Below are positions 25,531 to 44,231 of a stretch of 64,000 nucleotides of DNA, in pieces; within the stretch, counting starts at the first letter, position 1; every line of letters starts with the position of its first letter. A model generated the notes under the pieces. That model had not been told where the DNA came from, did not search any database, and saw only the letters and a list, made by a program, of their open reading frames with translations. The stretch comes from Chitinophaga sp. 180180018-3 (GTDB taxonomy: Bacteria; Bacteroidota; Bacteroidia; Chitinophagales; Chitinophagaceae): the NCBI RefSeq assembly GCF_037893185.1, contig NZ_CP140772.1, positions 3,968,001 through 4,032,000 of the forward strand, given 5' to 3'. A program made the position numbers and the translations under genes.

Positions 25531-26892
25531 CTATTCATTCCTGGGCATATCCGGATTAAAATACAAAACGCTCATAGGTATCTGTAATGTATACCGGGCG
25601 CTTTTCGGTGGCAAAGTAGCACGTACTTCATTATTAGCACCATATCGTACCACGGCCGGCATCTTTCCCTCCGCGTCCAGACGGCGCATATCAATCCATC
25701 TGAATCCACGGAAGGCCAGTTCAAATCCGCGTTCCCGCATCACCCAATCGAGTACTTCGTTCTTATCTGCTGACGTAAGTGGTTTCCAGGCAGATTTCCG
25801 GATCCTGTTTTTGCGGATATCGTTCAACTGTCCGAGTGCGGCATCCATATCGCCTTTGCGTGCTGCCACTTCTGCAATGATCAGTTTCATTTCTTCCACC
25901 GATGTACCGAAGTTGGGTACCGGTGTTCCGTTTACCGCAAAGTAAGATACTCCCCTTTTTTGAAAACTCAGGTCGCCCAATGACGTGTAAAAGAGGCGCA
26001 GGCGGAGATCGCTGGTATCAAAGCGTTTCAGGAAGTTGAGTGTAGGATACTCCCAGGACGAGGGATAGGTAGAATACCGTGCATACAGCTCAGTAGGGCG
26101 GTCGACCATTTTAGGCAACTGTGATGATTTCGTCACCGTATTATAATCAATCAATGCCGGCGGATTATCACCCATAGCCATCTTTGCATATTTCGCTGCA
26201 TCATCGTAACGTCCGCAATACAGGCTGGCCCTTGCCAGTATACTGTACGCCGCCGGTACCGATCCGCGGAAACGGTTAGCTGCATTGCTGGCTGATAGGC
26301 CGGGAATAGCTTCATTGATATCAGCAAAGATATGATTATAGATCTCTTCCACAGTGCTCCGGGTCGGTGTTTTCTCCGACACATCTACGGACACCATAAA
26401 TGGCACCGCCAGATCTTTATCGGCCGTTGTACTATTATATGGTTTTGCATAGAGATTTACCAGATACAGGTATTCAAATGCACGCCCCAACAAAGCTTCC
26501 GACCGGATACGCTTTTTATCCGCGTCCGTACCGTTGCGGGCAGCATTAATGCCCAGCAACACCGCATTATACTTGTATATATTGCCATAATGTTTTCCCC
26601 AGATAACCGGAACATCCTTCGTATCGGTATTGTACTGCTCAGCCCAAAGGTATACCAGGTCTTCCGGTCGGGTGGGCACCAACGGAATGGCAGGTACATC
26701 AGCCTCATCAGAAAGCAGGTTAAGTTCCCGTGCACCACTGGCTGTCAGCGATGAACTATTCAGGAACAGGTCGAAATCATTGACGGTACTTAGAATTACT
26801 TTTCCTTTCGGTTCCACATCCAGGTACTTCCGGCAGGAAGTCGCAGCGAACATCAGTCCTGCCATTCCGAATATTGCAATAATATGTTTCAT
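25531..26892 (-). CDS. SusD/RagB-family nutrient-binding lipoprotein
   Basis: 453 residues. The lipoprotein signal peptide ends FAATSC (Cys20), followed by RKYLDVEPKGKV, the usual SusD start. The TPR-rich fold is evident (GRAFEYLYLVNLYAKPYN, ASLYCGRYDDAAKYAKMAM) and the C-terminal RGFELAFRGFRWIDMRRL segment is a strong SusD marker. It lids the SusC barrel encoded 14 bp upstream (26907-30356). No glycosidase lies in the operon, so this pair may import peptides, glycoconjugates or a scavenged oligomer; the substrate is unknown. Confidence 0.93.
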   Translation of the reverse strand: MKHIIAIFGMAGLMFAATSCRKYLDVEPKGKVILSTVNDFDLFLNSSSLTASGARELNLLSDEADVPAIPLVPTRPEDLVYLWAEQYNTDTKDVPVIWGKHYGNIYKYNAVLLGINAARNGTDADKKRIRSEALLGRAFEYLYLVNLYAKPYNSTTADKDLAVPFMVSVDVSEKTPTRSTVEEIYNHIFADINEAIPGLSASNAANRFRGSVPAAYSILARASLYCGRYDDAAKYAKMAMGDNPPALIDYNTVTKSSQLPKMVDRPTELYARYSTYPSSWEYPTLNFLKRFDTSDLRLRLFYTSLGDLSFQKRGVSYFAVNGTPVPNFGTSVEEMKLIIAEVAARKGDMDAALGQLNDIRKNRIRKSAWKPLTSADKNEVLDWVMRERGFELAFRGFRWIDMRRLDAEGKMPAVVRYGANNEVRATLPPKSARYTLQIPMSVLYFNPDMPRNE

Positions 26893-26906: not shown

Positions 26907-29900
26907 TTAAAAGTTGGTGAATAAACCTATCGTATAAGAAGGAACAAGATGCCTTCTCGCAAAACTGCCTGTAGCAAGGCTGTAATCATATTTGTTCAGG
27001 CCTATGGTAGTCAGATTGCTGGCCTGCAGCTTCAGTTCGAAGCTGGAGAAACCAAGCCTTTTGATTTGTTCCACATTTCTGAAATCGTAAGAGAGGGTTA
27101 TATCGCGCAGTACGAAGTAAGCGCCATTCACCACATTTCTGTCTGCATTATTGTAAACATAAAAATGATAATTATTATACAACCAATAAGGATAAAGCCC
27201 CATAACATCTGTCTTCTTCTCATCGCCGGGATGACGGAAGTAATTTTCGCTTCCCTCCAGTGGCCTGGTATTATATATCGATGGCGCAGGTACTCTTGTT
27301 TTAAATCCTCCGTAATAATCAATCATACAGTACACGTAAAAGTTACCAATGTCTACCCGGTTGCTCAGCCCGGCACTCATGGAAGGGATACTGTTTCCAT
27401 TATACACCAGATCCCTGAACCCTTCATTGAGTGCGCCGTAACCAGGTTGTTTGATTTTCCCGTTCACATCGTACATCAACGGAAGACCAGTAGTATCGAG
27501 GCCTGCATAACGGTAGCTAAACATAGCGCCTACCGGGTACCCTACTACGTAGTTATTAGAGATAAATGAATAAGAATCTGCCTGGTTGTTTACATACAGG
27601 CTCAGCACCTTATTGGTGTTAACAGAAAGTGCAATACCGGTATTCCAGTTAAAACGCTTATGGGAGATCCAGTCGGCATGCAGGTTTAGCTCTACTCCGT
27701 TATTCCGGATAGACGCTGCATTCAACACCGCACTGCTGGATCCTTTAGTAGGATCAATCTGCGACGCAGCGAGCAGGTCTTTACTTTTCTTCAGGTAATA
27801 ATCGAGGCTGCCGTAAATCCTTCCAATAAACCGGAAATCCAGCCCAACGTTCAGATTCTGGGTCTGCTCCCATCGCAGTGCCGCATTCTGCATAGATGCC
27901 AGGTCCAGCGCAGTGGAAGGCGGGTTGGTTCTCAGGTTGGTGGCATAAGCCGCCACTATCTGCGGAATACTGGCTTTGGAGGTATTCCCGTTAAATCCAT
28001 ATGCTGCACGCAGCTTCAAAGCATCCAGCCATTTTGCGCCCTGCATAAAACGTTCCTGGTCTATATTCCATCCCGCTCCCAGCGACCAGAGCGGCTTGTA
28101 GCGATACTTCGGATCTGTTCCGAATAAATTCGACTGGTCGATGCGTACACTACCCGACAAAGAATATTTTCCGCGGTAAGCATACACCCCGTTAAAATAG
28201 CCCGATACAAAGCGATCGTCAGAATATCCCTTGCCAAATAAATCGCTGTAGTTCAGCCGCGGGTTTCCGCCGGCAAATGTAGATACCCAGTATCCTGTAA
28301 AAATCTTATTGTAGTCAACCGGCAGCTGCAATAATGTTTGATCATTATAACCAAAAACAGCGCTCTTGCTTGATTCATTGGTCACCTTTCTGTTTTCCGC
28401 GCCCAGAATCAGGTTAAACGAATGCTGGTCGTTCAGTATTTTATTATAGTCCAGCTGCGCTCTCAGCGTATAACTCAGGGTGTTATTGGTTGCCTGCCTG
28501 ATGTACCCGCCTCTCGGTATATTATAGATGATCCCGTTGGTTCCCTGCTCCGCATATTCGTTCACATACTGACGGGCCTCGGACGATTTTTCACTGGCAT
28601 AGTGTTTCAGATCTGCCCGTGAGTTTTCGTAGATACCACCGAAACGCAAACTGAATCCGTGTCCCAACTGATAAGTAAAGTTGGCAATGATCTTATTATT
28701 GACGGTTTTCGTAAGATCACTGATCTCGTTAACATCCACGAGCGGATAAGCCAGGTTATCATAAAGTCCCAGCTTACGGATAGAATCATTGAATACAGGA
28801 TTCATTCTCGAACCTGCGAAAACAGGCAGCGGATTCCCGTTCTTATCCTGGAAACGCTCGTACCCATAAACATTCATAAAATCAGGTACCGGCGCTGTCC
28901 TGTTTTGTGTTTCAAGGTAATCCGTAGTCAACTCCAATGCGAAACGCCTGTTGAACTTATAGTTTGCCCTGCCTGACAATAAAAAGCGGCTGTCGTTGTT
29001 ATTGATCTGCGATAAACGATCTCCTTTATAGTTCGCGGAAACATAATAAGTAGCCCTTTCACTGCCGCCGGAAAAATTCAGATCGTATTGTTGCGTAACG
29101 GCTGTACGCAGAAACAGCCGGCTATAATCCGCCGCATTATTGTACCCCCCCAACTCAGCAAACCTTTTCTCCAACCCACTTTGATTAATAAGCCCGGCAT
29201 TTCTGTCGAGCAGAATTTCGTATCCGGGTTGATAGTTATAATACCGTGTCTTATAGTAACTCCAGTCGACCGGCATATCTGTTCCGTCTTTGTAATTATC
29301 CCGCAAATAGTCCAGCACCGCTGTGTTAGGCCCGAGCCGGTAGGTGTTATACTTTTCTTTGCCGGTAAATCCCAGCGTAGTGCGGAAAGCAAACTTCGTG
29401 CGGCCAATCTCTGCCTGTTTCCGTTCTATGATCACCACACCGTTGGAAGCGCGTACACCATAAATAGTAGCAGCCGCTGCATCCTTCAGCACTGTCACTG
29501 ATTTGATTTCATTGGGATTGATAGCATCGAGCGACAATTCAGTAGGGTATCCATCCACCACTATCAGTGGTTGTTTGTTAGCGGAGATAGTAGATAATCC
29601 ACGGATCTGGAACAATGAGTTCCCTTCAAATTTCATGTCGTTATTGATCAGTACTCCCGGTAATTTATTCTGGATGCCCGACAAAAAGTCCGTACTGATC
29701 CGCGACTCGTATTCCTTTGTGGTGATAGACGCGATAGCACCTGTACTTTGTTCCGGGCGTATGCGCTGATAAGCCGTAGTCACTTCCACCGTTCCCAAAT
29801 TATGCCGGCCGAACTTCATGACTACGTCTTTCATATCCGCCAGCTCCTGAGCTTTCAGGGTAATAGTTTCGTAGCCCATGCAGGAAATGCGAACTACTGC

Positions 29901-30356
29901 ACCGGCTGGCACATTGCGTAGCATATAAGCACCGGTACTGTTGGTGATTACGCCGCCGGTGCTTACCTGTACGGTTACATAGGCCAATGGTGCTCCCTGT
30001 TCATTTCTTACTATACCCGCCAGATTTACTGCCGGCTCCTGAGGTAACAATGGTCCTGTTTTTACATAAACGACAACAGTGCCGGAAACACTCTTGAAAT
30101 CAAGAGCTGTTCCTTCCAGCATCTGTTGCAGGGCCTCCCCCAGTGGCTTATTAACACAATGGACACTAACGTCGTTCTTTCCGGCAACTTCTTCGGCCGG
30201 AAATGAAATTTTACATCCTGCCTGTTTGGCTGCTTCTGTAAGCAGGGTGGCCAGGGGTTGATGTTGCTTCGATAAACTGATGTTCTTTTGCAGGATCTGG
30301 GCATGACTGTACAGGCCATAGACGGCCAGCATCAGCAGCAGACATACTTTCCTCAT
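26907..30356 (-). CDS. SusC/RagA-type TonB-dependent transporter with STN domain
   Basis: 1149 residues. The signal peptide ends GLYSHAQ. An STN domain (about 35-95, TLLTEAAKQAGCKISFPAEEV) allows signalling to FecR. A carboxypeptidase-regulatory-like domain and the plug follow, with the SusC hallmark in variant form (QPLIVVDGYPTE, then ATIYGVRASNGVVII). The barrel ends SYTIGLFTNF. The operon order on the minus strand is FecR, SusC, SusD. With the divergent ECF sigma gene at 31537 it forms one signalling and uptake unit. Confidence 0.94.
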   Translation of the reverse strand: MRKVCLLLMLAVYGLYSHAQILQKNISLSKQHQPLATLLTEAAKQAGCKISFPAEEVAGKNDVSVHCVNKPLGEALQQMLEGTALDFKSVSGTVVVYVKTGPLLPQEPAVNLAGIVRNEQGAPLAYVTVQVSTGGVITNSTGAYMLRNVPAGAVVRISCMGYETITLKAQELADMKDVVMKFGRHNLGTVEVTTAYQRIRPEQSTGAIASITTKEYESRISTDFLSGIQNKLPGVLINNDMKFEGNSLFQIRGLSTISANKQPLIVVDGYPTELSLDAINPNEIKSVTVLKDAAAATIYGVRASNGVVIIERKQAEIGRTKFAFRTTLGFTGKEKYNTYRLGPNTAVLDYLRDNYKDGTDMPVDWSYYKTRYYNYQPGYEILLDRNAGLINQSGLEKRFAELGGYNNAADYSRLFLRTAVTQQYDLNFSGGSERATYYVSANYKGDRLSQINNNDSRFLLSGRANYKFNRRFALELTTDYLETQNRTAPVPDFMNVYGYERFQDKNGNPLPVFAGSRMNPVFNDSIRKLGLYDNLAYPLVDVNEISDLTKTVNNKIIANFTYQLGHGFSLRFGGIYENSRADLKHYASEKSSEARQYVNEYAEQGTNGIIYNIPRGGYIRQATNNTLSYTLRAQLDYNKILNDQHSFNLILGAENRKVTNESSKSAVFGYNDQTLLQLPVDYNKIFTGYWVSTFAGGNPRLNYSDLFGKGYSDDRFVSGYFNGVYAYRGKYSLSGSVRIDQSNLFGTDPKYRYKPLWSLGAGWNIDQERFMQGAKWLDALKLRAAYGFNGNTSKASIPQIVAAYATNLRTNPPSTALDLASMQNAALRWEQTQNLNVGLDFRFIGRIYGSLDYYLKKSKDLLAASQIDPTKGSSSAVLNAASIRNNGVELNLHADWISHKRFNWNTGIALSVNTNKVLSLYVNNQADSYSFISNNYVVGYPVGAMFSYRYAGLDTTGLPLMYDVNGKIKQPGYGALNEGFRDLVYNGNSIPSMSAGLSNRVDIGNFYVYCMIDYYGGFKTRVPAPSIYNTRPLEGSENYFRHPGDEKKTDVMGLYPYWLYNNYHFYVYNNADRNVVNGAYFVLRDITLSYDFRNVEQIKRLGFSSFELKLQASNLTTIGLNKYDYSLATGSFARRHLVPSYTIGLFTNF

Positions 30357-30403: not shown

Positions 30404-31387
30404 TTAAACTGTAATAGTGACAATGCTATCTGTGACTGTATATGTATATCCTAAAGTTGTACAAACGATATCCAGGATTTCGGTTAGCGGTTCTGTTCCA
30501 TTAAATGCATCCGTAATAGTTACCCGTTTGCTCTTATCTATTGGTTCATTGAATTTGAATGTAACCTGGTAGCGGTCCGACAGCCGGCTACATACCTCAT
30601 TCAGTGTCATATTATTAAACAACAATCCCTTTGCCAGCCAATCCGGCTGCCGGCCTGTATTAACCGGTACAGCTGTTTCAACAGGCATATTTTCTTTCAA
30701 TACCACTTCCTGTCTTTTAGTAAGGATAGCTAACTTTTTACTATCTTTTTCCACCCTTACCTTTCCACTGGAAACAGTGACAGTAACTCTACCTGAGGCG
30801 ACATCCGATTTGATATTAAATGCAGTACCTAACACATAGGTATAGATGCCAGCTGCCTTCACAATAAAAGGCTTCCGGGCATCTGTACGAATATCGAAGT
30901 AAGCCTCCCCCTGTAATGTCAGCCGCCTTTCTTTTGTATTGAAATCCGGCGCCGGTGAAATTGTACTTCCCGCGCGTAGTACCACTACCGAACTGTCGGG
31001 TAGCACCAGGTGCCGGTCATATCCCGTAGCTTCCTGCATTCCGGGAACCCTGGCCGATTTTAAATCAGCTACTGCATTTGCAGGTGCAGTAACAGCTGAT
31101 GGCGCCACGGCATTAAAATGCCTGACCATCCATAAGACGCCAGCCAGCACAGCTGCCGCAGCGATGCCGCCATACAGCCGGCGATACCTGGTTCGCTGTT
31201 CAGGTATGCGCTGCCGGAACTCCTTATATCTTGTATCAAGGTAGGCCGTATCATACACATCCCAACCGGGAAGTGCAGTTCCTTCTTCCAGGGAATCATA
31301 CCAACTGCGAAGCTGCTCCAGCTCCTCATCCGTACACCGCCCTGCTTTGTATTTTTCCAGCAACAACCTTAGTTCTTCCTCTTGCAT
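30404..31387 (-). CDS. FecR-family anti-sigma factor
   Basis: About 327 residues. It has an N-terminal sigma-binding part (LLLEKYKAGRCTDEELEQL), a transmembrane helix (about 80-98, YGGIAAAAVLAGVLWMV), the periplasmic FecR domain (LPDSSVVVLRAGSTISPAP and LQGEAYFDIRTDARKPFIV) and a C-terminal DUF4974-like domain (LLFNNMTLNEVCSRLSDRYQV). The ATG at 31387 is preferred over 31417 since the family begins close to this acidic helix. It is 47 bp before the SusC gene and divergent from its ECF sigma partner, which is less usual than the collinear order. Confidence 0.92.
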   Translation of the reverse strand: MQEEELRLLLEKYKAGRCTDEELEQLRSWYDSLEEGTALPGWDVYDTAYLDTRYKEFRQRIPEQRTRYRRLYGGIAAAAVLAGVLWMVRHFNAVAPSAVTAPANAVADLKSARVPGMQEATGYDRHLVLPDSSVVVLRAGSTISPAPDFNTKERRLTLQGEAYFDIRTDARKPFIVKAAGIYTYVLGTAFNIKSDVASGRVTVTVSSGKVRVEKDSKKLAILTKRQEVVLKENMPVETAVPVNTGRQPDWLAKGLLFNNMTLNEVCSRLSDRYQVTFKFNEPIDKSKRVTITDAFNGTEPLTEILDIVCTTLGYTYTVTDSIVTITV

Positions 31388-31480
31388 GTATAATCGATAT
31401 AGATATTGACGAAGCAAAAATGCGCCACCGTTACTCTCTTTTTAAATATTTTTTATCTTAATACAACATAAGGAGACTGA

Positions 31481-31536: not shown

Positions 31537-32106
31537 TTGAGGTGCAACCAATCAAATACGACAGACCAGTCATTATTATCGCTTTGGGAAAAGGGCGATG
31601 AAACAGCATTCGAACAAATCTACCGCAGATATTTCCCGCAGCTGGTTACCATTGCTTACCATAAAACCAAAGATCGCTTTCTTGCCGAAGAGCTTGCACA
31701 GGAGAGCCTGCTGGCATTTTATTGCAAGAGAGATTACCACGTCAGTAACATTCCCGCCTATCTCCAGGTGATCCTGCGTCATAAAACATATGATCATTTC
31801 AGGAAGATGTTGATCGACAAACAACATGCGGAACAGGCAATCCTTGCGAAGCCAGCTTCAATAGAAGACACTCCTCACCAGCTATACCACTCGGATCTGC
31901 TAAAATCTCTGCACCGCCAGGTATTGGAACTTCCTCTGCAATGCCGTACTGTTTTCCTGCTGAGCCGCGAGAAACATATGTCTAATCATGAAATTGCAGC
32001 CACTCTCGGCATTTCAGTTAATACTGTGGAACAGCATATGCGCAAAGCGCTGAAAAGGCTGCGGGAAGGAATGCTGATGGCATTCCTGATGTGGGTAATC
32101 TCATAG
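31537..32106 (+). CDS. ECF RNA polymerase sigma factor (FecI-like), TTG start
   Basis: A 189-residue sigma-70 protein. Region 2 is FLAEELAQESLLAFYCKRD with NIPAYLQVILRHKTYDHFRK; region 4 is LPLQCRTVFLLSREKHMSNHEI with TLGISVNTVEQHMRKALKRLR. No ATG lies near the start; TTG at 31537 follows an AGGGGAA stretch by a few bases and is the likely initiator, since the next Met is inside region 2. It is divergent from the FecR-SusC-SusD operon and presumably controls it. Downstream lies a long non-coding stretch. Confidence 0.9.
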   Translation: MRCNQSNTTDQSLLSLWEKGDETAFEQIYRRYFPQLVTIAYHKTKDRFLAEELAQESLLAFYCKRDYHVSNIPAYLQVILRHKTYDHFRKMLIDKQHAEQAILAKPASIEDTPHQLYHSDLLKSLHRQVLELPLQCRTVFLLSREKHMSNHEIAATLGISVNTVEQHMRKALKRLREGMLMAFLMWVIS

Positions 32107-32974: not shown

Positions 32975-35326
32975 ATGAATAAACTGATAACAATGGTAGC
33001 AGCAGGCATAGTCATTATGTACAGTGGAGATTCATTTGGTCAATTTAAAGTTACCGGTAAAGTAACGGATACTACTTTTCATGCGCTTACATTTGCTACT
33101 ATTGAATTGTACAAAGATAGCCTCCGTCTCAAATCATCTGTGACAGATAGCGCCGGCGGGTATACCCTCGAAAATATTCAGTCAGGCATCTATAGCCTGC
33201 GATGCAGCTACCTGGGCAACAAACCATGGACGAAAGAAATAAATGTAACAAATGATATTGTAGTCAATATAACATATAGAACGAGCAGTAAAAACCTTGC
33301 TGGCATTACCGTTACAGGAAGAACTATTGAGCAGGTAGGCGACAAACTTTATTTCAATGTCGAAAACAGCATGCTGTCCAGGGGGTATAATGGAATAGAG
33401 GTTCTTCAACGTAGTCCCAAGTTGAATATTGGCCCGGATGGCGAAATCCTGTTGTCAAATAAAGCAGCTATCGTATTAATCAATGGCAGGAAGATGCCTC
33501 TACAGGGGGCAGCATTAAACACTTATTTATCCGGCTTAAATGCAGAGGAGATCAGGCGGATTGAAATACAGGATGTAGCCTCTTCTGAACAGGATGCAAC
33601 GTCTGGGGGCGGCGTCATTAACATTATTACAAAAAAGAATCCACATGGATTCAAAGTGATTGCAAAAGCATCTTACCTCTTTAGAAAGAACAGCTATAGC
33701 ACGGAAAACGGCGCTTTAAATCTGAACTATGGCACAGAAAAATGGGCGGTATATGGCGCTGTTAATTATAATAAAGATAAAGATTTGGGAAAATCCACCG
33801 GGGCTTTCAATTATAAATCCGGAGTTAAAAATAACAATGCAGAGGTATTTGATCAAAATGAAAAGAGCACGGATTATAGAGCAGGGATTATCTACTACCC
33901 TGATAAAAAACAAGAGACAGGTATTGAAGGCTATTACAATCAATACCACTCCAACTTTGATGGATATGGTACCCAGCAACTCGATCAGGTGGGATTACCT
34001 GCCATCAACAGTGAGATACACTCAATATCGGGGTCGAACGATTGCCTTTGGTACCTGACATTTAATTACGTCTATAAGACAGACGAAAAAGGCAGTAATT
34101 TTAAATTCATCGGCGATGTAGGCAACAATAAAAACCTACCCTATAATGACGTTCAAACAAATTACAGAAATGACGCGGCAAAAGACAGCCATGATCAATA
34201 TAATACTACGGCTCTTTCCAATTATTATACGCTGCAGATTGACTGGACAAAAAAGTTAGCAGGTAATTTCGACTTCCAATCCGGAATTAAATACGGAAGG
34301 GTGAAGAGAAATAATGAATTAATCTCCCAATATCTCGAAAATGGAAGTTGGATATACAATAAAAATCAGTATCAAAAATTTGACAATCAGGAAGGCATTC
34401 TTGCCTGGTATGCCAGTGCAAGTAAACAATGGCAAAAACAGTATTTGAAGATTGGTTTGCGGATTGAGAATACTGATATCAAAGGGTTAAATAAGATCAA
34501 TGATAAAAACGTTAAACAGAACTACACGAGGCTCTTCCCAAGTCTCTATTACAATTACAGCCTGAAAAACGATATGGGTTTCTCCATCAGCTACAAAAGG
34601 AGTATCACAAGGCCATTCTTCTCGGACCTAAATCCATATACGATTAAACAGAATGACTATCTGTACTTCATCGGCAATCCATATCTACAGCCTTTATATA
34701 TGGATGCAATAAGGATAGCTTTCGATTTCCCCCAACAATCCATTTCAATTTTTGCCAGAAAAACGACAAACACGATTCAGGGTGCCTATTATACTGATAG
34801 TAATCTGGTAAACTATTTCCAACCACAGAATTTCGGAAAATTTTGTGAAACCGGCATTGATTATACCTATGCCGGTAATATTTCAAAATGGTGGTATGCC
34901 AGTATAAATACGGGGGTTTTCTACAATTCTTTTGATGCCATTGATGGAGTAAACACAGCCGGATTGTCATTCTATAATAATATTTATTGCCAGTTCAAAA
35001 TTAGCAAGGCATGGTCGGTAGATCTATCTAACTTCTATCAGCATCGTTACAAAAATAAAAACCTTCTGGGAGAGCCCAAATACAAAACAGATCTATCCAT
35101 AAGAAATACTTCCATAAAAAACATCATTCTCACACTAAGATCAAGTGACATTTTTAATACCCGCATCGATGAGAACACTTCTTACTACAAAAACTTCGAC
35201 TCCTATTTCCGGTTAAAAAAACTGACGCGGTCATTTATGTTTTCTATCCAATACACATTCGACAACAAGAAAAAACTGAACACAAAAACTGTGAAATCAG
35301 ACAATGAAAGCCGGCAAAGGCTCTGA
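32975..35326 (+). CDS. Outer-membrane beta-barrel (TonB receptor-like) protein
   Basis: 783 residues. The signal peptide ends SGDSFGQ. A carboxypeptidase-regulatory-like domain (VTGKVTDTTFHALTFATIEL) precedes a plug-like domain (VLINGRKMPLQG and GGGVINIITKKNP) and a barrel ending MFSIQYTF. It belongs to the outer-membrane beta-barrel group common in Bacteroidota (OMP_b-brl_3-like), without STN domain and without the SusC motif. Codon use is more AT-rich than in the flanks. It is 80 bp before the RiPP precursor and on the same strand, so it may act in export, uptake or self-recognition of the peptide. That role is inference. Confidence 0.85.
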   Translation: MNKLITMVAAGIVIMYSGDSFGQFKVTGKVTDTTFHALTFATIELYKDSLRLKSSVTDSAGGYTLENIQSGIYSLRCSYLGNKPWTKEINVTNDIVVNITYRTSSKNLAGITVTGRTIEQVGDKLYFNVENSMLSRGYNGIEVLQRSPKLNIGPDGEILLSNKAAIVLINGRKMPLQGAALNTYLSGLNAEEIRRIEIQDVASSEQDATSGGGVINIITKKNPHGFKVIAKASYLFRKNSYSTENGALNLNYGTEKWAVYGAVNYNKDKDLGKSTGAFNYKSGVKNNNAEVFDQNEKSTDYRAGIIYYPDKKQETGIEGYYNQYHSNFDGYGTQQLDQVGLPAINSEIHSISGSNDCLWYLTFNYVYKTDEKGSNFKFIGDVGNNKNLPYNDVQTNYRNDAAKDSHDQYNTTALSNYYTLQIDWTKKLAGNFDFQSGIKYGRVKRNNELISQYLENGSWIYNKNQYQKFDNQEGILAWYASASKQWQKQYLKIGLRIENTDIKGLNKINDKNVKQNYTRLFPSLYYNYSLKNDMGFSISYKRSITRPFFSDLNPYTIKQNDYLYFIGNPYLQPLYMDAIRIAFDFPQQSISIFARKTTNTIQGAYYTDSNLVNYFQPQNFGKFCETGIDYTYAGNISKWWYASINTGVFYNSFDAIDGVNTAGLSFYNNIYCQFKISKAWSVDLSNFYQHRYKNKNLLGEPKYKTDLSIRNTSIKNIILTLRSSDIFNTRIDENTSYYKNFDSYFRLKKLTRSFMFSIQYTFDNKKKLNTKTVKSDNESRQRL

Positions 35327-35406
35327 CACGCAGTATAAAATAGTTGCAACGAAGGAGATTGCTGAAAATCCTAAAAAGAGTAAGCGTAGTTCAAAACTGA
35401 AAAAAA

Positions 35407-35592
35407 ATGAAAAACTTAAAATCCCTTGACAAAAAAGTGACCCCACTGAAACAAACAGAGTTACGTAAACTCAAAGGAGGTTTCTCTGCATTCGGCGGCT
35501 CTGTAAACGTAGTTAAAGAACCCGTAAATGTGAACGTGGATGTAGCTGCAGGACACCAATGCGCCTGTGCATGTAGCCCAGGATCAAATTAA
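35407..35592 (+). CDS. GG-leader RiPP precursor peptide (radical SAM target)
   Basis: 61 residues. The leader of 25 residues ends LKQTELRKLKGG, the pattern of Bacteroidota GG-leader natural-product precursors (TIGR04149-like). The 36-residue core starts FSAFGGS, contains alternating Val-Asn blocks (SVNVV, VNVNVDV) and ends HQCACACSPGSN with three Cys spaced by single Ala. Encoded next to a radical SAM/SPASM enzyme (63 bp) and a C39 exporter, so modification followed by leader cleavage after GG is expected. An in-frame TGA lies two codons before the ATG, so no longer start exists. The product structure is unknown; thioether or other Cys-based crosslinks are possible. Confidence 0.82.
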   Translation: MKNLKSLDKKVTPLKQTELRKLKGGFSAFGGSVNVVKEPVNVNVDVAAGHQCACACSPGSN

Positions 35593-35655
35593 CCCAGAGG
35601 CCGGTCTTAAGACTATAAGACCGGCCCTTATACCTTGACCTATAAACCTAATATT

Positions 35656-36957
35656 ATGAAATTAAGTAGATTTAATACTGCTGTTCCATATGACGGTGCA
35701 GTTGTATATCACAACTCATACTCAAACAGATTCCTCTTACTGGACCAGATGCTATACGACATGATTGCCATTATAAGGACACCCTCAGATTTAGAAGACT
35801 TAAGGGAAATCCACGAAGAGTTCTACAATGCACTAACTGAATATGGATTTATAGTAGAAGAAGATACAGATGAAATAGCAAAAGCCAGGACGCTGATAGA
35901 ATCTATCGATAATCAGGACTCATATTTCCATTTAATTGTCAATCCAACGATGAATTGTAATTTCAGCTGTTGGTATTGTTACGAAAATCATGAAAAAAAA
36001 TCAAGAATAACCGACGAGGTTATAGACAAGATAGAAGCACTAATCGAAAATATATTTGTAAGCAAGCCTGGTATCCAAATATTCAGTCTATCATTTTTTG
36101 GAGGAGAACCGTTGCTATTTTATGACAAAATGAGTATTCTCATGAAGAAAGCAAAGATACTGTCGGATAAGTATGGAAAGGAATTACAGATCTCCATTAC
36201 CTCTAACGGCCTGCTCATTGATGAGAAAATAATTGAGGAATTAAAAGGTTATACTGTAGCGGGATTTCAGATAACACTGGATGGAAATAAAGACAAACAT
36301 GACCTGGTACGATTCGTCTCAAAATCAAGAGGATCCTATGAGAAAATCATGGACAATATCAGGGCCCTCGTCCGCAATGGCTTTTTTATAACTATGAGAG
36401 TAAATTTCACAAAAGAAAACCTGATTGGATTGGAAGATATAATTGATGATCTGAGAGACTTAACTGAAGAAGAAAAGAAACTCATATCGCTATCCATGCA
36501 AAAGGTATTTCAGGAACCAAGCACACAGGAATTAATTGACGACGTGGGCAAATTCAAGGAATATGCCCGCAAAAATGGCATATCCCATCGGAGTGCAATT
36601 CTTGCAGATACTGTCAGAAGCTCCTGCTATGCAGATAAGCAGAATGAAGCCGTAATTAACTACAATGGTGATGTATATAAATGTAATGCCAGAGATTTCA
36701 ACCAAAAAAATAAAGAAGGTATATTAAATGAAAAAGGAGAGATTATCTGGAACGAACAGCACAATAAAAGGTTAATACCTAAATTGACCAATAAGCCATG
36801 CCTGGAATGCTCCATTATGCCGATTTGTGGTGGAGGTTGCAGCCAGATGATAGTGGAGAATATTGGCAGAGACTATTGCGTGCATGATTTTGACGAAAAA
36901 AGCAAGAAACGACTAGTACTCGAAATGTTTTTAGATCAGGAAACAATAAAAATTTAA
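35656..36957 (+). CDS. Radical SAM/SPASM peptide maturase
   Basis: About 433 residues. The radical SAM cluster motif CNFSCWYC (Cys101, 105 and 108) follows an N-terminal part (1-90) that looks like a peptide-recognition segment. FFGGEPLLF and ITSNGLL are further radical SAM core motifs. The C-terminal SPASM region has SSCYADKQNE, YKCNARDF, PCLECSIMPICGGGC and DYCVHDF, enough Cys for auxiliary Fe-S clusters. The ATG at 35656 is chosen because family members start near KLSRFNT; an in-frame start at 35635 adds 7 residues. It lies between the precursor and the C39 exporter, with 1 bp to the latter. The modification type cannot be read from sequence. Confidence 0.92.
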   Translation: MKLSRFNTAVPYDGAVVYHNSYSNRFLLLDQMLYDMIAIIRTPSDLEDLREIHEEFYNALTEYGFIVEEDTDEIAKARTLIESIDNQDSYFHLIVNPTMNCNFSCWYCYENHEKKSRITDEVIDKIEALIENIFVSKPGIQIFSLSFFGGEPLLFYDKMSILMKKAKILSDKYGKELQISITSNGLLIDEKIIEELKGYTVAGFQITLDGNKDKHDLVRFVSKSRGSYEKIMDNIRALVRNGFFITMRVNFTKENLIGLEDIIDDLRDLTEEEKKLISLSMQKVFQEPSTQELIDDVGKFKEYARKNGISHRSAILADTVRSSCYADKQNEAVINYNGDVYKCNARDFNQKNKEGILNEKGEIIWNEQHNKRLIPKLTNKPCLECSIMPICGGGCSQMIVENIGRDYCVHDFDEKSKKRLVLEMFLDQETIKI

Positions 36958-36958
36958 A

Positions 36959-39178
36959 ATGATCTTCTTTCCACAACATGATCAGATGGATTGCGGGCCG
37001 GCCTGCCTCGCAATGGTGGCTTCCAGCTACGGTAAGATCTACGGCCTGAATTATTTACGGGAACAATCATTTCTCTCCCGGGAGGGAGTATCCCTATTGG
37101 GAATAAGTGATGCTGCCCAGCAAATCGGCATGGAAACACTGCCAGCAAAGGTTTCTCCCGACATGCTTGCGGAAAAAGAAACGCCGCTTCCCGCCATCCT
37201 TCATTGGAATCAAAACCATTTTGTTGTACTTGAAAAGATACAGCGAAATCCTTTCACAAAAGAATTACGATATAAGATAGCTGACCCGGCACATGGATTC
37301 ATCACATTATCCAGAAAACGCTTTGAAAAACACTGGCTTTCAGCAGATGAAGAAGGAGTAGCATTGTTTCTGCATCCCACTGAACATTTCTACAAACAGG
37401 ATCCATCAAAAGAGGAAAAGGCATCTATCCGGTTTTTATTAAGTTATCTTATCCCTTACAAACGTTCTCTGATCTGGATGCTGGTATTATTACTGATAGG
37501 GTCAATAATTTCACTGGCCTTTCCGCTTCTTAATCAAGTGCTGATAGACAAAGGCGTTAATGGAAAAAATCTCAATTTCATTACGTTGATACTATCGGCG
37601 CAACTCAGTCTTTATCTGGGCAGCCTGGTGATGGAATTATTCCGTAACTGGATTACACTTGTAGTAGGCACCAAGGTGAATATCCAGATCATTTCGGACT
37701 TCTTAAGAAAACTAATGAAACTACCCATTAAGTTTTTCGACACAAAATTAATGGGTGATTTTAATCAACGGATTACGGATCACGATCGTATAGAGAATTT
37801 CCTTACCTCTCAAAGCCTGCTCACTTTCTTCTCTATGATCACCTTTATAGTTTTCTTTGGGGTGCTCTGGTACTACAATCCGCAACTATTGTTAGTTTAT
37901 CTGGGACTTAGTATTGTCGCCGTATTATGGTCATTATACTGGCTGAAACGGAGAAAGATACTAGATTATTTCCGCTTTCAGTTGCGCAGCGAAAATCAGC
38001 AATCCATTTATGAAATAATGAATGGTGTAACAGAAATGAAACTAAACCAATTTGAAGAATATAAACGCAAAGAATGGGAAACAATTCAGCAGAAAATATT
38101 TAAAACGAATATCCGCACGCTAAGACTTAACCAAATACAATTAACGGGATTTGAGTTTTTCAACCAATGTAAAAATATATTCGTCACATTTCTTGCAGCA
38201 TCATTTGTCGTTCACGGACAAATGACACTAGGAGCATTATTGAGCGTATCATACATCATCGGCCAGATGAACTCCCCCATCAATCAACTGGTAAATTTTT
38301 TCCGATCATTGCAAGATGCCAAACTGAGCCTGGCCCGGCTCAATGAAGTGCAGCAGCATCCGGAAGAAGACGCCCAGGCTGAACATACTTCGGGAACTAT
38401 GCCACCTCATAGGAACGATAACATGAATGCCTTCAACGGAAAAGATTTTAAGTTATCCTGCATAGATTTCCAATATGAAGGGCCGAGGTCTCCCTTTGTT
38501 CTGAAGGATATATCCCTTCATATCCCTCAGGGAAAAATAACCGCTATCGTAGGTGCCAGCGGAAGCGGAAAAACTACGCTAATGAAGCTGTTGCTGAAAT
38601 TTTATGATCCTGTGAATGGTAGTATCCATCTTGGCGATCATCCTTTAAACGAGGTACCTCATCTATGGTTGCGTAAACACAGCGGAGTAGTATTGCAAGA
38701 TGGCTTTATTTTTGGAGACACCATTGAACGTAACATTGTATGCGGTGATGAACATATCAACAAAGAAAGATTACATCAAGCACTTCATATCGCTAACATT
38801 GACTCATTTATTGATGGTCTTCCACTGGGCTTGAATACAAAGATCGGTTCTTCGGGCAATGGCCTTTCCGGAGGACAGCGTCAACGTATATTGATAGCTC
38901 GTGCCGTATACAAAAATCCCCTCTTCCTGTTTCTGGACGAGGCAACATCCGCCCTGGATGCAGAAAATGAAAAGGTCATTCATGATAACCTACAATCTTT
39001 CTTTACGGGAAAAACCGTAGTAATTATTGCCCACAGACTTTCTACCGTTAAAAATGCAGATCAGATCGTTGTACTAAAAGAAGGACAGATTGTAGAAAGC
39101 GGCACTCATCATCAACTTGTAGGAAAGAAGATGAACTACTACAACCTGGTGAAGAATCAACTGGAACTGGGAAGCTAA
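36959..39178 (+). CDS. C39 peptidase-containing ABC exporter of the RiPP cluster
   Basis: 739 residues. N-terminal C39 protease: QHDQMDCGPACLAM with Cys12, His in NHFVVLEKI, Asp in KIADPAHG. A six-helix membrane domain spans about 160-430, with a Cys-poor linker (about 460-490). The ATPase has Walker A GASGSGKTT, signature LSGGQRQR and Walker B FLFLDEATSALD. It starts directly after the maturase stop, so it is co-transcribed and probably cleaves the GG leader of the 61-residue precursor and exports the product. No HlyD adaptor follows, unlike the first locus. Sequence differs clearly from the exporter at 11437, so this is not a recent duplication. Confidence 0.94.
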   Translation: MIFFPQHDQMDCGPACLAMVASSYGKIYGLNYLREQSFLSREGVSLLGISDAAQQIGMETLPAKVSPDMLAEKETPLPAILHWNQNHFVVLEKIQRNPFTKELRYKIADPAHGFITLSRKRFEKHWLSADEEGVALFLHPTEHFYKQDPSKEEKASIRFLLSYLIPYKRSLIWMLVLLLIGSIISLAFPLLNQVLIDKGVNGKNLNFITLILSAQLSLYLGSLVMELFRNWITLVVGTKVNIQIISDFLRKLMKLPIKFFDTKLMGDFNQRITDHDRIENFLTSQSLLTFFSMITFIVFFGVLWYYNPQLLLVYLGLSIVAVLWSLYWLKRRKILDYFRFQLRSENQQSIYEIMNGVTEMKLNQFEEYKRKEWETIQQKIFKTNIRTLRLNQIQLTGFEFFNQCKNIFVTFLAASFVVHGQMTLGALLSVSYIIGQMNSPINQLVNFFRSLQDAKLSLARLNEVQQHPEEDAQAEHTSGTMPPHRNDNMNAFNGKDFKLSCIDFQYEGPRSPFVLKDISLHIPQGKITAIVGASGSGKTTLMKLLLKFYDPVNGSIHLGDHPLNEVPHLWLRKHSGVVLQDGFIFGDTIERNIVCGDEHINKERLHQALHIANIDSFIDGLPLGLNTKIGSSGNGLSGGQRQRILIARAVYKNPLFLFLDEATSALDAENEKVIHDNLQSFFTGKTVVIIAHRLSTVKNADQIVVLKEGQIVESGTHHQLVGKKMNYYNLVKNQLELGS

Positions 39179-39181
39179 CAG

Positions 39182-39212
39182 TTGAAACTAAACCCTATAT
39201 TAACTATCTTTA
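39182..39212 (+). promoter_or_regulatory. Candidate promoter of the 3-methyladenine glycosylase gene
   Basis: TTG (39182-39184), 20 bp, TATCTTTA (39205-39212). It has the same TAnnTTTA variant as at 31504 and lies 20 bp before the GTG start at 39233. Confidence 0.45.
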
Positions 39213-39232
39213 GCGCCACAAAACACAACACC

Positions 39233-39850
39233 GTGGCTAAAATCAACGCTTCATTCTACCAGCGGGAAGATGTACTGCTGATTGCGCAACAATTATTGGG
39301 AAGTACACTGGTGACAAACATCAACGGAGTGAGAACGGCTGGTATTATCGTGGAAACCGAAGCCTATGCCGGCGTCACAGACAGGGCATCACATGCCTGG
39401 AACAACCGCCGTACTAACCGTACCGCCGTTATGTATGAACCAGGCGGCGTTGCTTATGTTTATCTCTGCTATGGTATACATTACCTGTTCAACATCGTTA
39501 CCAATGTCCGCGATACGCCGCAGGCTGTATTGGTAAGAGCGCTGGAGCCGGTAGATGGGCTGGAGATCATGAAAGAAAGAACCGGAAACAAAAATCCCCT
39601 GCTTACCGCTGGTCCGGGTGCACTCAGCAAAGCAATGGGCATAGATCTCCACCTCAACGGTTCCCGTCTCTCCGGTAATAAAATTTGGGTAGAGCAACAC
39701 TCCCCGGTCAGCCATATCGATATGGCCGCTGATACCCGTGTGGGCGTTCAATACGCCGGTGCCGATGCATTTCTTCCTTATCGTTTCTATATAAAAAACA
39801 ATAAATGGGTCAGCAAAGGAAAAGGATTAACACTGCCGTTGTCAACATAA
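39233..39850 (+). CDS. mpg: DNA-3-methyladenine glycosylase (AAG/MPG family)
   Basis: About 205 residues. Family motifs are clear: AQQLLGSTLVT, VETEAYAGVTDRASHAWN, NRTAVMYEPGGVAYVYLCYG, HYLFNIVTN and AGPGALSKAMGI. It removes alkylated purines from DNA in base-excision repair. I prefer GTG at 39233 because the family begins at about this point and a promoter-like element overlaps the alternative TTG at 39182. It follows the exporter stop closely but has its own promoter and GC-richer codon use, so it marks the right border of the AT-rich island. Confidence 0.92.
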   Translation: MAKINASFYQREDVLLIAQQLLGSTLVTNINGVRTAGIIVETEAYAGVTDRASHAWNNRRTNRTAVMYEPGGVAYVYLCYGIHYLFNIVTNVRDTPQAVLVRALEPVDGLEIMKERTGNKNPLLTAGPGALSKAMGIDLHLNGSRLSGNKIWVEQHSPVSHIDMAADTRVGVQYAGADAFLPYRFYIKNNKWVSKGKGLTLPLST

Positions 39851-39975
39851 ATACATCTTTTTTGTTACTGTTTATAACGAATATATTTCTACTTTTAACT
39901 TTCATTTTGAATGTTGGGTCCCTTATGAAATAAGACAGTAACATGCCCTCATGTTGCGGGTTTAAATAATCGAAT

Positions 39976-41307
39976 ATGTCAGGAGTGTATGCGACTACTG
40001 CTATGCCACGCAAATGGGCCATAGCAGCATTATTGATATTTATTCTTGCCGGTTGCACTTCTTCATCCACCTCTACTCACCAGCGTAAAGTGTATATCGG
40101 CAAGCTGAACGGAAAATATACCATCTACCGCAACGATCAACCTTTCCTGGTGAAAGGGGCTGCGGGAACAGACGACTTGCTTAAACTCCGCGATGCCGGA
40201 GGCAATACAATTCGCACATGGGATACCACGCACCTGGGCCAGCTGCTCGATAGCGCCTACGCTAACAATATAGCGGTTATTGCCGGCCTCTCCATCCCTC
40301 CCAGTATTTATAAGGAATTTTATGAAGATACGGCTAAAGTAGCGGCACAATATAACGGGGTCAGGGATATAGTAACCCGTTACAAATCGCATCCTGCATT
40401 ACTGATGTGGTGCCTGGGCAATGAAGTCGATTTCCCCTACCGGCCGCAATACGCCAACTTCTACAGGGCATACAACCGCCTGCTGAAAACGATACACGAA
40501 CAGGACCCCGATCATCCGGTCACTACAGCGCTCGTTAACTTCAACAAGCGCTGCCTTTTTAACATCCGGCTCAAAGTATCCGGCCTGGATCTTATTTCCA
40601 TGAACATCTTCGGCGATCTCCGGAACCTCCATAAAAACCTGGACGATTTTTCCTGGTGGTGGAATGGCCCTTTCCTCATCACCGAATGGGGTATCAACGG
40701 GCCCTGGGAATCTGAGTTTACTGCCTGGGGAGCTCCTATTGAAAATACCACTACCAAAAAAGCGGCGCAATACCAGGAGCTCTATGAGCAGCATATGCCG
40801 GTAAATAATCCCCGCTTCCTCGGCGCCTGTATTTTCTACTGGGGCAATAAACAGGAGGTTACGCATACGTGGTACAGCCTGTTCAGTGCGGATGGCGCCG
40901 CCTCAGCAACCGCTGGTGTCATGCAATACCTGTGGACCGGCAACTGGCCTGCCCATAAGGCACCGGAATTGAAGTATATGCTGCTGGGCGGCAAAGGTGC
41001 AAGGGATAATATCATTTGCCTTCCCGATACCCTGCAAACGGCGGAAGTCTTTTTTCAAAATACGCCCGACAGCAGCTTGCGTATCGAATGGGAATTGCTG
41101 GCGGAAGACTGGTATTCAAAGGATCGCTTCGTTCCTAATACCGCAAAACCGGCGTCATTTAATACACATTTTACCAGCATCAACGGGAACAAGGCAACCT
41201 TCCGGACGCCATCGAAAGAAGGACCATACCGGATATTTGCCACTGTCTATAATAAATACGGGCAGTTTGCTGCTACCAATACACCTTTTTACGTAATCGG
41301 CCGATGA
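39976..41307 (+). CDS. GH-A-clan (GH2 TIM-barrel-like) glycosidase lipoprotein
   Basis: 443 residues. The lipoprotein signal peptide ends IFILAGC. A (beta/alpha)8 barrel follows with two plausible catalytic glutamates: LMWCLGNEVDF (acid/base) and FLITEWGINGPW (nucleophile). A C-terminal beta-sandwich ends the protein (about 330-443). The start could also be the ATG at 40003, which still gives a full signal peptide. Its stop overlaps the ATG of the GT2 gene by 4 bp, so the two are translationally coupled. It probably trims or remodels the glycan made by the synthase. Specificity is unknown. Confidence 0.82.
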   Translation: MSGVYATTAMPRKWAIAALLIFILAGCTSSSTSTHQRKVYIGKLNGKYTIYRNDQPFLVKGAAGTDDLLKLRDAGGNTIRTWDTTHLGQLLDSAYANNIAVIAGLSIPPSIYKEFYEDTAKVAAQYNGVRDIVTRYKSHPALLMWCLGNEVDFPYRPQYANFYRAYNRLLKTIHEQDPDHPVTTALVNFNKRCLFNIRLKVSGLDLISMNIFGDLRNLHKNLDDFSWWWNGPFLITEWGINGPWESEFTAWGAPIENTTTKKAAQYQELYEQHMPVNNPRFLGACIFYWGNKQEVTHTWYSLFSADGAASATAGVMQYLWTGNWPAHKAPELKYMLLGGKGARDNIICLPDTLQTAEVFFQNTPDSSLRIEWELLAEDWYSKDRFVPNTAKPASFNTHFTSINGNKATFRTPSKEGPYRIFATVYNKYGQFAATNTPFYVIGR

Positions 41308-44231
41308 TCCAAAAAACCGAAATGATTTCTCCTCCTTCCAGGAGAGAAAGATTTACCCTGAGACTCATGATAATCCTGGGCGTCTGCAGCCTGGGCTACA
41401 TGATGTATTATCTATTGGATAAAAAACAGATTAACTATGCTCCTTTCTATTGGGTGCTGATAATAGGGATTGCTTTCAACTGCCTGCGTGTGCTGCATGA
41501 ATGGTATCACTATTTTTCAATTACTGTTCCCGCTCCTGCCGAAAAGAAACAGGATTTTACAGTAGATATACTCACTACCTTCTGCTCCGGGGAACCTTAT
41601 CCCATGATAGTGAAAACGCTTACCGCAATCAAAGCCGTTCAATATCCGCATACCACGTGGCTTTGCGATGAAGCAAATGATCCTTACCTCATCGAAATAT
41701 GCCAGCAGCTGGGCGTGCGTCATGTTACCCGCACCACCCACGAAAATGCCAAGGCCGGCAACATTAACAACGCGCTAAAACAGGCCACCGGAGAGCTTTG
41801 TGTGGTGATGGACCCGGATCATGTACCCGCTCCCGGTTTCCTGGATCCGATTGTAGATCACTTCAACGATCCGGCAGTAGGGTTTGTTCAGGTCGTGCAG
41901 GCATACAGCAACCTGGGCGACAGCCTCGTGGCTAAAGGTGCTGCGCAGCAAACCTTCCAGTTCTATGGGCCGATAATGGCCACCATGAACAGTTACGGCA
42001 CCGTGCTGGCCATCGGCGCCAACTGCACGTTCCGCAGGAAAGCACTGGATTCTATCGGCGGCCACGCAGCAGGGTTATCGGAAGACATGCACACCGCCAT
42101 GCAGCTGCATGCAAAAGGCTGGAAATCCATTTACGTGCCTGCTGTACTTACACGCGGACTGGTACCATCTACCATGTCGGCCTACTACGCACAACAGCTC
42201 AAATGGGCCAGAGGCACCGCAGAACTACTGGTTACCTCCTACGTTAAACTGTTCCCGAATTTTACCTGGCGCCAGCAATTGCACTACGGTACTATTCCTT
42301 TTCATTATTTGTCGGGGTTCATATTCCTGATCAATTTTCTCATCCCCATCCTATCGCTCATTACCGGCCGCATTCCGTTTCATGTAGACATGGTAGATTT
42401 TGCCGTGATATGCCTCCCTGCTATTGCATCCATTTTCCTCGTCCGCCATTTTGTACAAAGGTGGGTAATGGAAGAAGAGGAACGGGGGTTTCATGTGGTA
42501 GGCGGACTATTGCTGATTGGCACCTGGTGGATATATATCCTGGGTATCGTATATACAATTATCCGGAAAAAGGTACCGTATATACCTACCCCTAAAGACG
42601 ACAGCGGGGCGGATAACTGGTGGCTGAATATTCCCAATATGATGGTACTGCTGGCTAGTCTGGGCGCCATCATCTACGGGCTGGGGTATGACTGGAATCC
42701 CTATTCCATTGCGATGGCAACGTTCGCAGGCGTCAATTGTTTTATCATGGCGTTTAATATCATTGCCAGTTTTCGCCTGCACCGGTTACTGGCACAATGG
42801 CCCCTTGCAGGTACTATTTTACGCTACCCCCTGCCGCTGAAAAAACAGCTCTGGCTTTTCCGTCATCTTCACCTGTATACACTTGTACGAAAGCTGGGCT
42901 TACCGCTGCTGCTGGCGGTGGTGTTCGCAACCTGGTATACCATGCAACGTAATCCGGAACCAAAGGCCGGGAGCATGCCCACTCATATGGAAACCGGTGA
43001 TAAAGTAAGGTGGTCCGACCTCGTAGCGGCCGACGACCCGCCAGTTTCCGTCCGTAGCCATTTTCATGCGCTTCCGGATACGATCCGCGGATTGAGTTAC
43101 AACAAAGGCGTTCCCTGGTTCAAGAACCGCTATGCACTCACCCGGTATGAGGTAAACAGGGATTTTACCGCCATGAAAGCCCTGGGCGTAAATACCATCC
43201 GTTTTTTTGGTCCGGGTATATACGATCGTAACGTACTCCGTGTGGCCGCAGAGCAGGGCATACACCTGCATTACGGTTTCTGGATCCCTGATATCAGGGA
43301 TATGAAGGAAGACAGGAGCATGCTGAATGACCTGCACTCCACGATCCTTGACGCGGTTACTTCCCTGAAGAACAATCCGCAGATCACCGCGTGGAATATA
43401 GGTAATAGCGCCTTACAACGTCTCTCCCAACAATACTATACACCTGATCAGCCATACCAGCAAAAAGCCTGGCTCAACTGGCTTCAAACGCTAACAGCAG
43501 CCATCAAAACCACCGATAGCAGCAGGCCGCTTACCCTGGAAGTGGAACTGACAAATCATATCAATACCGACCTGCAGCAACTGCAACAGCTATTACCTGC
43601 CGTTGATGCCTTTGGTATCGTAGCGGGCGCCGACAGTAGCGGTAGCTACCAGCTTGCCACCAGCAGTGTGCCTCACTATATCAGCGAGGCGCCGGTGCCG
43701 TGGTATACCCGCCTCACACCCGCTGCCAGAAACGGTTTTGTTGCCCCCTGGCAGGATCTGGAAACGAGGGACTATGTTACATTCAACGGGTTAACGGATC
43801 ACAGCGGCCGTTTCAAACCGGCTTATTATCAGCTGGGCCGCGTGTGGGGCCAACTACCCGCAGCAGCTGCGCTGTTGCCGGAGCTCCACATCCTGCGTCC
43901 CGCACGGGCTACGTATCCCGGCAGTCGGCTCACCTACTATGCGCTGGTGAAACACGATGGGCAATGGACATTTCCCGGCGACCCCGAAAAAGGTATTTCG
44001 TTTGAATGGTATCTTGTAAAATCAGATCTCTATGGTAATAATATCTTCAGGAAAAAAATGGGAACCGGCACGTCAGTTACCTTCCCAATTCCGGAGAAAC
44101 CTGACCAACACTGGCTGTATCTGGAAGCAGTAAAAAACGGACAGGTAATTACTACGTCGTCGCCCCTGAATACACCGGTATGGCCCGTTTCAGGGCGCCA
44201 ACAACTATCAGCGAAACCACTGCGGGAATAA
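41304..44231 (+). CDS. Membrane GT2 glycosyltransferase fused to a degenerate GH-A-like domain
   Basis: 975 residues. Two N-terminal helices precede a processive GT2 domain with VVMDPDHVPAPGF (DxD-like), AGLSEDMHTAM (TED-like) and QQLKWARGTAE (QxxRW-like). Four to six helices follow (about 330-555). Residues about 590-860 form a barrel-like domain related to the upstream lipoprotein: NTIRFFGPGIYD matches NTIRTWDTTHL there. In it the expected acid/base Glu is replaced (WNIGNSALQ), while a Glu remains in HYISEAPVPW. A beta domain ends the chain. The protein probably polymerises and exports a beta-glucan-like polysaccharide; the fused domain may bind rather than cut it. Confidence 0.85.
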   Translation: MIQKTEMISPPSRRERFTLRLMIILGVCSLGYMMYYLLDKKQINYAPFYWVLIIGIAFNCLRVLHEWYHYFSITVPAPAEKKQDFTVDILTTFCSGEPYPMIVKTLTAIKAVQYPHTTWLCDEANDPYLIEICQQLGVRHVTRTTHENAKAGNINNALKQATGELCVVMDPDHVPAPGFLDPIVDHFNDPAVGFVQVVQAYSNLGDSLVAKGAAQQTFQFYGPIMATMNSYGTVLAIGANCTFRRKALDSIGGHAAGLSEDMHTAMQLHAKGWKSIYVPAVLTRGLVPSTMSAYYAQQLKWARGTAELLVTSYVKLFPNFTWRQQLHYGTIPFHYLSGFIFLINFLIPILSLITGRIPFHVDMVDFAVICLPAIASIFLVRHFVQRWVMEEEERGFHVVGGLLLIGTWWIYILGIVYTIIRKKVPYIPTPKDDSGADNWWLNIPNMMVLLASLGAIIYGLGYDWNPYSIAMATFAGVNCFIMAFNIIASFRLHRLLAQWPLAGTILRYPLPLKKQLWLFRHLHLYTLVRKLGLPLLLAVVFATWYTMQRNPEPKAGSMPTHMETGDKVRWSDLVAADDPPVSVRSHFHALPDTIRGLSYNKGVPWFKNRYALTRYEVNRDFTAMKALGVNTIRFFGPGIYDRNVLRVAAEQGIHLHYGFWIPDIRDMKEDRSMLNDLHSTILDAVTSLKNNPQITAWNIGNSALQRLSQQYYTPDQPYQQKAWLNWLQTLTAAIKTTDSSRPLTLEVELTNHINTDLQQLQQLLPAVDAFGIVAGADSSGSYQLATSSVPHYISEAPVPWYTRLTPAARNGFVAPWQDLETRDYVTFNGLTDHSGRFKPAYYQLGRVWGQLPAAAALLPELHILRPARATYPGSRLTYYALVKHDGQWTFPGDPEKGISFEWYLVKSDLYGNNIFRKKMGTGTSVTFPIPEKPDQHWLYLEAVKNGQVITTSSPLNTPVWPVSGRQQLSAKPLRE

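Follow-up and report, generated by a model that had tools for sequence, protein, structure and literature searches.

A four-gene radical SAM peptide cassette of Chitinophaga with a predicted TonB-dependent-transporter-like outer-membrane protein and candidate Asn/Asp–Cys thioether pairs

Gene clusters of Bacteroidales that combine a radical S-adenosylmethionine (SAM) enzyme, a double-glycine (GG) precursor and a C39 exporter have been mined in silico, and nine of them were selected; according to the accessible part of that paper, some pair the exporter with an outer-membrane protein (OMP) but lack a membrane fusion protein (Fernandez-Cantos et al. 2023, PMC10352776). The general kind of cluster is therefore already known. 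Two groups of thioether peptides are also close to the system described here: the ranthipeptides (NxxcA/NxxcB, freyrasin/PapB, SCIFF/CteB) and the hairpin-type sactipeptides, in which the donor Cys lies in the N-terminal part, with two exceptions in the accessible part of the source (PMC8326336). We analysed a 64,000-nucleotide stretch of the genome of the soil-type bacterium Chitinophaga sp. 180180018-3 (contig NZ_CP140772.1, positions 3,968,001 to 4,032,000; hereafter the window), which carries a four-gene cassette that very probably makes a ribosomally synthesised and post-translationally modified peptide (RiPP). The host genome is a single contig of 8.13 Mb. The cassette genes lie in a row across positions 32975–39178:

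32975..35326, + strand: OMP, TonB-dependent-transporter-like, 783 amino acids (aa), with Pfam OMP_b-brl_3 and CarboxypepD_reg
35407..35592, + strand: precursor peptide, 61 aa, leader 1–25 ending in GG, core 26–61
35527..35574, + strand: core motif N41-V-N43-V-D45-V-A-A-G-H-Q-C52-A-C54-A-C56, based on invariant positions, residue places and the mirror-spacing test described below
35656..36957, + strand: radical SAM/SPASM maturase with a candidate N-terminal RiPP recognition element (RRE), 433 aa, based on the starts of relatives, the conserved Cys set and a model
36959..39178, + strand: C39 peptidase-containing ABC exporter, 739 aa, with Pfam Peptidase_C39, ABC_membrane and ABC_tran

An earlier reading made from the letters of the window (hereafter the sequence-only reading) had described four same-strand genes, with a 61-residue GG-leader peptide directly ahead of a radical SAM/SPASM enzyme and a C39 exporter with intact Cys/His/Asp; all four genes were found, the leader ends in LKGG, and C12, H87 and D109 were read in the exporter. 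The intergenic gaps are 80, 63 and 1 nucleotides when the maturase starts at ATG 35656. This is probably the true start, giving a protein of 433 aa; the listed TTG at 35635 is probably not the start, because the four closest relatives begin with MKLS[RK]FNTAV, which corresponds to ATG 35656. In the host genome, the maturase protein matches only its own gene (E up to 0.001).

As far as the accessible part of PMC10352776 describes the Bacteroidales clusters, they have in common with this cassette the radical SAM enzyme, the GG precursor, the C39 exporter and, in some, an OMP without a fusion protein; the Asn–Cys spacing and the receptor reading of the OMP are points of this cassette, in a comparison that did not extend to precursor sequences. 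With ranthipeptides, the cassette shares a radical SAM/SPASM maturase and an Asn or Asp that lies a set, short number of residues from Cys; the window maturase has the CteB structure and the PapB and SCIFF models among its nearest matches. Unlike ranthipeptides, however, the cassette has a GG leader, a C39 exporter and an OMP partner, and its spacing is longer and nested. The residue spacing, which speaks for the class, suggests that the cassette works like a thioether system of the ranthipeptide type. Thioethers across a hairpin, as proposed here, would be shared with sactipeptides, whereas the Cys of the window core would sit in the C-terminal part, in contrast to the sactipeptides covered by the accessible text. 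The TIGR04149/GG-Bacteroidales precursors likewise have a GG leader, occur in Bacteroidota and have a radical SAM neighbour, but the window precursor reached 14.9 of the 25 bits required.

The order OMP, precursor, maturase and exporter is repeated in three further Chitinophaga loci (L017, L018 and L019) and in Empedobacter brevis (L020), which belongs to another family, and the flanking genes differ among these loci and the window. The same order with different neighbours indicates that the cassette behaves as one piece, beyond what would be expected by chance. The window maturase is 79%, 76%, 76% and 69% identical to those of L017 (the Chitinophaga tropicalis locus), L018, L019 and L020, respectively.

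In the leader of the window precursor, L-12, E-8, L-7, L-4, G-2 and G-1 were read in the sequence, and we take these positions to fit the double-glycine consensus. The five precursors of the window and L017–L020 have 30 invariant positions, including Gly-Gly, the FSAF behind it, NVNVDVA, GH, CAC and the last C. Among 100 family cores, Asn four residues before Cys occurred far above chance, and Asn three or four residues before Cys was the leading spacing in 45 later cores; N-x2-C is the Asn–Cys beta-thioether spacing of NxxcA in the accessible part of PMC8326336. The spacing in the family precursors points to Cys-to-Asn/Asp thioethers, which we consider probable. Furthermore, the mirror-spacing test showed that, ahead of C-x-C, two Asn/Asp residues two apart mirror the Cys pair. 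The sequence of the window core, NVNVDVAAGHQCACAC, is compatible with a hairpin containing the nested pairs D45–C52, N43–C54 and N41–C56, a tentative assignment that we place somewhat below even odds. In this stapled-hairpin reading, the acceptors may lie on strand 1 and the cysteines on strand 2, opposite to the arrangement in most sactipeptide hairpins. NCBIfam yielded no hit for six related precursors (E up to 1).

In an alignment of 48 maturases including that of the window, C101/105/108 (CX3CX2C), C324 and C382/385/391/395/408 were invariant, a set that we take to be the SPASM pattern, and G338 and C343 were at least 90% conserved. The Pfam SPASM score of the window maturase was 19.4, just under the cut-off of 21.5. 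Its AlphaFold2 model had a predicted local distance difference test (pLDDT) score of 90.3, and residues 7–62 formed three strands and three helices, a composition like that of an RRE. When the folds of whole proteins were compared (the N-terminal domain was not searched alone), CteB and TigE aligned to the model over nearly the full length, whereas ChlB and anSME, with similar scores, aligned only from about residue 86. CteB (5wgg) was also the nearest solved structure by sequence (54.9 bits) and was among the top fold matches. The PapB, QhpD and SCIFF models matched 48, 48 and 46 of the 48 maturases, respectively (E up to 1e-10). The window maturase nevertheless scored below the cut-offs of TIGR04463 (165.7 of 525 bits), PapB (NF047865; 127.8 of 340 bits) and the SCIFF maturase (TIGR03974; 80.9 of 425 bits), and lay far below each cut-off for the 25 NCBIfam families among the matches listed. 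Filing the cassette under TIGR04149, PapB, SCIFF or TIGR04463 was rejected because the curated cut-offs were not reached.

The exporter also has Walker A, LSGGQ and Walker B motifs and matches structures of peptidase-containing ABC transporters (PCATs), such as 4ry2, over its full length. Judged by its sequence, it is a PCAT, with the C39 Cys/His/Asp peptidase fused to ABC membrane and ATPase domains. The OMP, in turn, is predicted to have the fold of a TonB-dependent transporter with a plug and a large barrel. Its AlphaFold2 model (pLDDT 84.7; residues 105–114 of low confidence) comprised a carboxypeptidase-regulatory-like domain (about 24–101), a plug-like part (about 118–219) and the barrel, and its fold matches were TonB-dependent transporters, among them siderophore, heme, zinc (ZnuD) and copper (OprC) transporters. 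Pfam Plug was recognised in 7 of 28 OMP relatives and TonB_dep_Rec_b-barrel in 8 of 28, and the window OMP had neither; a sequence search of solved structures returned zero matches for it. The divergence of the OMP correlated with that of the maturase (rho 0.84) more strongly than with that of the exporter (0.42), and the partial correlations were 0.80 and 0.19, respectively. This stronger co-divergence with the maturase suggests that the OMP is more likely to serve the product than to act as an export channel. On balance, the OMP appears to be receptor-like.

Relatives of the maturase were found in at least 15 of the 79 sampled genomes of the window's genus (E up to 1e-60), four of which, the window's included, had a protein at least 77% identical, and in at least 16 of 394 genomes of its family (E up to 1e-40), at least 5 of 395 of its class and at least 32 of 320 sampled genomes of the Empedobacter family. 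When the L023 maturase was the query, relatives turned up in at least 19 of 349 genomes of the Phocaeicola family. Each of these counts includes the query genome and is a lower bound, since the large searches scored few candidates per genome. Scanning named genomes yielded 58 loci, almost all of them from Bacteroidota; the exceptions were L063, in a Eubacteriaceae metagenome-assembled genome, and a weak locus, L074, in one of Nanoarchaeota. Relatives of the cassette, as recognised by similarity, are widespread in Bacteroidota. A plasmid search with the maturase gave five records (best 42.3% identity). The relative L081, on a 30,333-base contig, corresponds to a plasmid record of Rhizosphaericola mali, and its position on this plasmid-like contig implies that such cassettes can be plasmid-borne.

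Architecture was counted where a locus had 3.5 kb or more of sequence on each side. Of the 79 first-set loci, 52 qualified, with an OMP in 40, a C39 exporter in 49 and both in 40; in the Empedobacter family (17 of 20 loci), an OMP was present in 16 and a C39 exporter in 17. Twelve qualifying loci of the first set do not have both; in five of them (L025, L030, L035, L044 and L067) a frame of 696–988 aa lies between the maturase and the exporter, and in L064 one of 693 aa lies behind the exporter. The Pfam OMP_b-brl_3 barrel was recognised in two of these six frames (L035 and L067), and the other four had no Pfam match. The slot between the maturase and the exporter is occupied by an S41 peptidase in L046 (5612–7216) and by a Porph_ging-family protein in L165 (3691–4527). 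The C39 exporter appears as two separate frames in L023 (9269–11466) and L079 (8813–10992). In L079, L081, L082 and L083, one maturase is preceded by five or six precursor candidates in tandem, whose leaders are nearly constant and whose cores differ, an arrangement like a peptide library.

Gene content, conservation, catalytic residues, Asn/Asp–Cys spacing, OMP fold and OMP–maturase co-divergence form the computed basis of the following account, to which we assign a probability of about 0.5 as a whole. The cassette would make a ribosomal peptide, whose leader would be bound by the radical SAM/SPASM enzyme, probably through its RRE-like N-terminus. The maturase would then link core Cys residues to upstream Asn/Asp by thioether bonds, and three nested bonds, possibly D45–C52, N43–C54 and N41–C56, would hold together a beta-hairpin that turns at A-A-G-H. 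The calculated mass of the unmodified core 26–61 is 3533.613 Da, and three rings would lower it to 3527.566 Da, by 2.016 Da per ring. Cleavage after Gly25 and export of the core would fall to the C39 exporter, and the OMP would be the dedicated outer-membrane partner of the thioether-stapled product, most likely a receptor or uptake route, although the direction and purpose of transport are themselves conjectural. The sequence-only reading had likewise proposed a modified-peptide cassette, which the family, structural and comparative evidence supports, the modification being an inference. Its suggestion that the OMP serves the product is now backed by the co-divergence with the maturase rather than the exporter. 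It had named maturases consistently lacking a GG precursor as counter-evidence, whereas precursor candidates were present in 47 of the 52 qualifying loci of the first set, 15 of the 17 of the Empedobacter family and all six (of 14) that qualified in the Phocaeicola family (Bacteroidaceae) set. It had matched the core to no described product, and among the open-licence PMC papers searched, none was recognised as describing the core or product.

Several observations weigh against parts of this account. The mirror-spacing test was set up after examples had been seen, and in the clade to which the window belongs, N-x3-C and N-x2-C are both absent. In SKCxC peptides, several residues (D, E, G, I or T) occur at −6, the position opposite the second Cys, and the CxCxC cores of L046 and L055 lack a third Asn/Asp to match their third Cys. 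Nearest-neighbour agreement was equal for the OMP with the radical SAM enzyme (30 of 55) and with the C39 exporter (30 of 55). Moreover, in L167, the OMP is nearest to L020 (51%), the maturase to L161 (54%) and the exporter to L162 (83%); these different nearest relatives suggest that parts have been exchanged, which breaks the OMP–maturase pairing. Finally, none of the six qualifying Bacteroidaceae loci has a C39 exporter near the maturase and only one has an OMP, a result that argues against the four genes being a fixed unit there. The layout differs in the Phocaeicola family loci L202–L212: most precursor candidates directly follow the maturase, and the exporter, not found near it, is possibly encoded elsewhere.

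The variable residues facing the second Cys in SKCxC peptides are what alpha-linkage permits, and sactipeptides likewise use hairpins and many acceptor residue types in the accessible part of PMC8326336. The same cassette might thus install alpha-carbon thioethers as in sactipeptides, or its Cys might form fewer pairs or different ones, with the mirrored register as a folding preference and not a bond map. We consider this rather unlikely in view of the strong Asn/Asp preference at a fixed distance from Cys and because the PapB, SCIFF and QhpD models, which represent makers of non-alpha thioethers, match nearly all relatives. It is very improbable that the maturase is instead an epimerase placing D-residues in the alternating NVNVDV strand, even though the epimerase EpeE was among its fold matches and we take alternating N/V strands to resemble proteusin cores; no epimerase model was among the 25 NCBIfam families in the matches listed, an absence that does not exclude an epimerase.

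Two further alternatives concern the role of the OMP. It would be unlikely to serve merely as the exit duct of the exporter, without a receptor role, given that its divergence tracks the maturase and only weakly the exporter and that its predicted fold is that of a TonB-dependent transporter with a plug; this role would nevertheless suit a four-gene cassette in which no TolC-like or membrane-fusion gene was found, as well as the Bacteroidales clusters BGC6-9, where the C39 exporter is accompanied by an OMP but by no fusion protein, according to the accessible part of PMC10352776. Alternatively, the product could be a metal ligand whose GHxCACAC tail, with its three alternating Cys and invariant His, binds copper, zinc or iron through free or partly modified thiols, the OMP being a metallophore receptor. 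The siderophore, heme, ZnuD and OprC transporters among the OMP fold matches would fit such a role, but these matches reflect the general fold, and His is not general in family cores. No metal-responsive gene was seen adjoining the cassette, although none was sought, and we regard a metal ligand as quite improbable.

Upstream of the cassette, genes at 25531–26892 and 26907–30356 (both − strand) resemble SusD and SusC by eye, respectively, followed by a FecR-type anti-sigma-like gene (30404–31417, −) and one resembling those for extracytoplasmic function (ECF)-type sigma factors (31537–32106, +). Downstream (39182–44231) lie a DNA-3-methyladenine glycosylase gene and two further genes. The glycosylase gene, which starts with TTG at 39182, 3 nucleotides past the exporter, was rejected as a cassette member because its order with the next two genes is kept without the cassette in L225 and L226, of the same genus; this fits the cassette having arrived beside them. 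The glycosylase was not found in the 17-kb loci L017–L019. Promoter (25 against 23.0, standard deviation 5.4, in shuffled sequence) and terminator (5 against 6.3, standard deviation 2.4) scans were at the shuffled level and were not used.

A bolder proposal, which we regard as doubtful, is that these cassettes form a new RiPP class of Bacteroidota, in which a mirror-register hairpin is stapled by nested Asn/Asp-to-Cys C-beta thioethers and a dedicated TonB-dependent transporter returns or senses the product. If the account given here is right, a family present in at least 32 of 320 sampled genomes of the Empedobacter family and at least 15 of 79 of Chitinophaga would make Asn/Asp–Cys-linked peptides whose bond positions could be read from the sequence. 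Most members would come with a candidate receptor, and both the chemistry and the purpose of a Bacteroidota RiPP would become directly testable.
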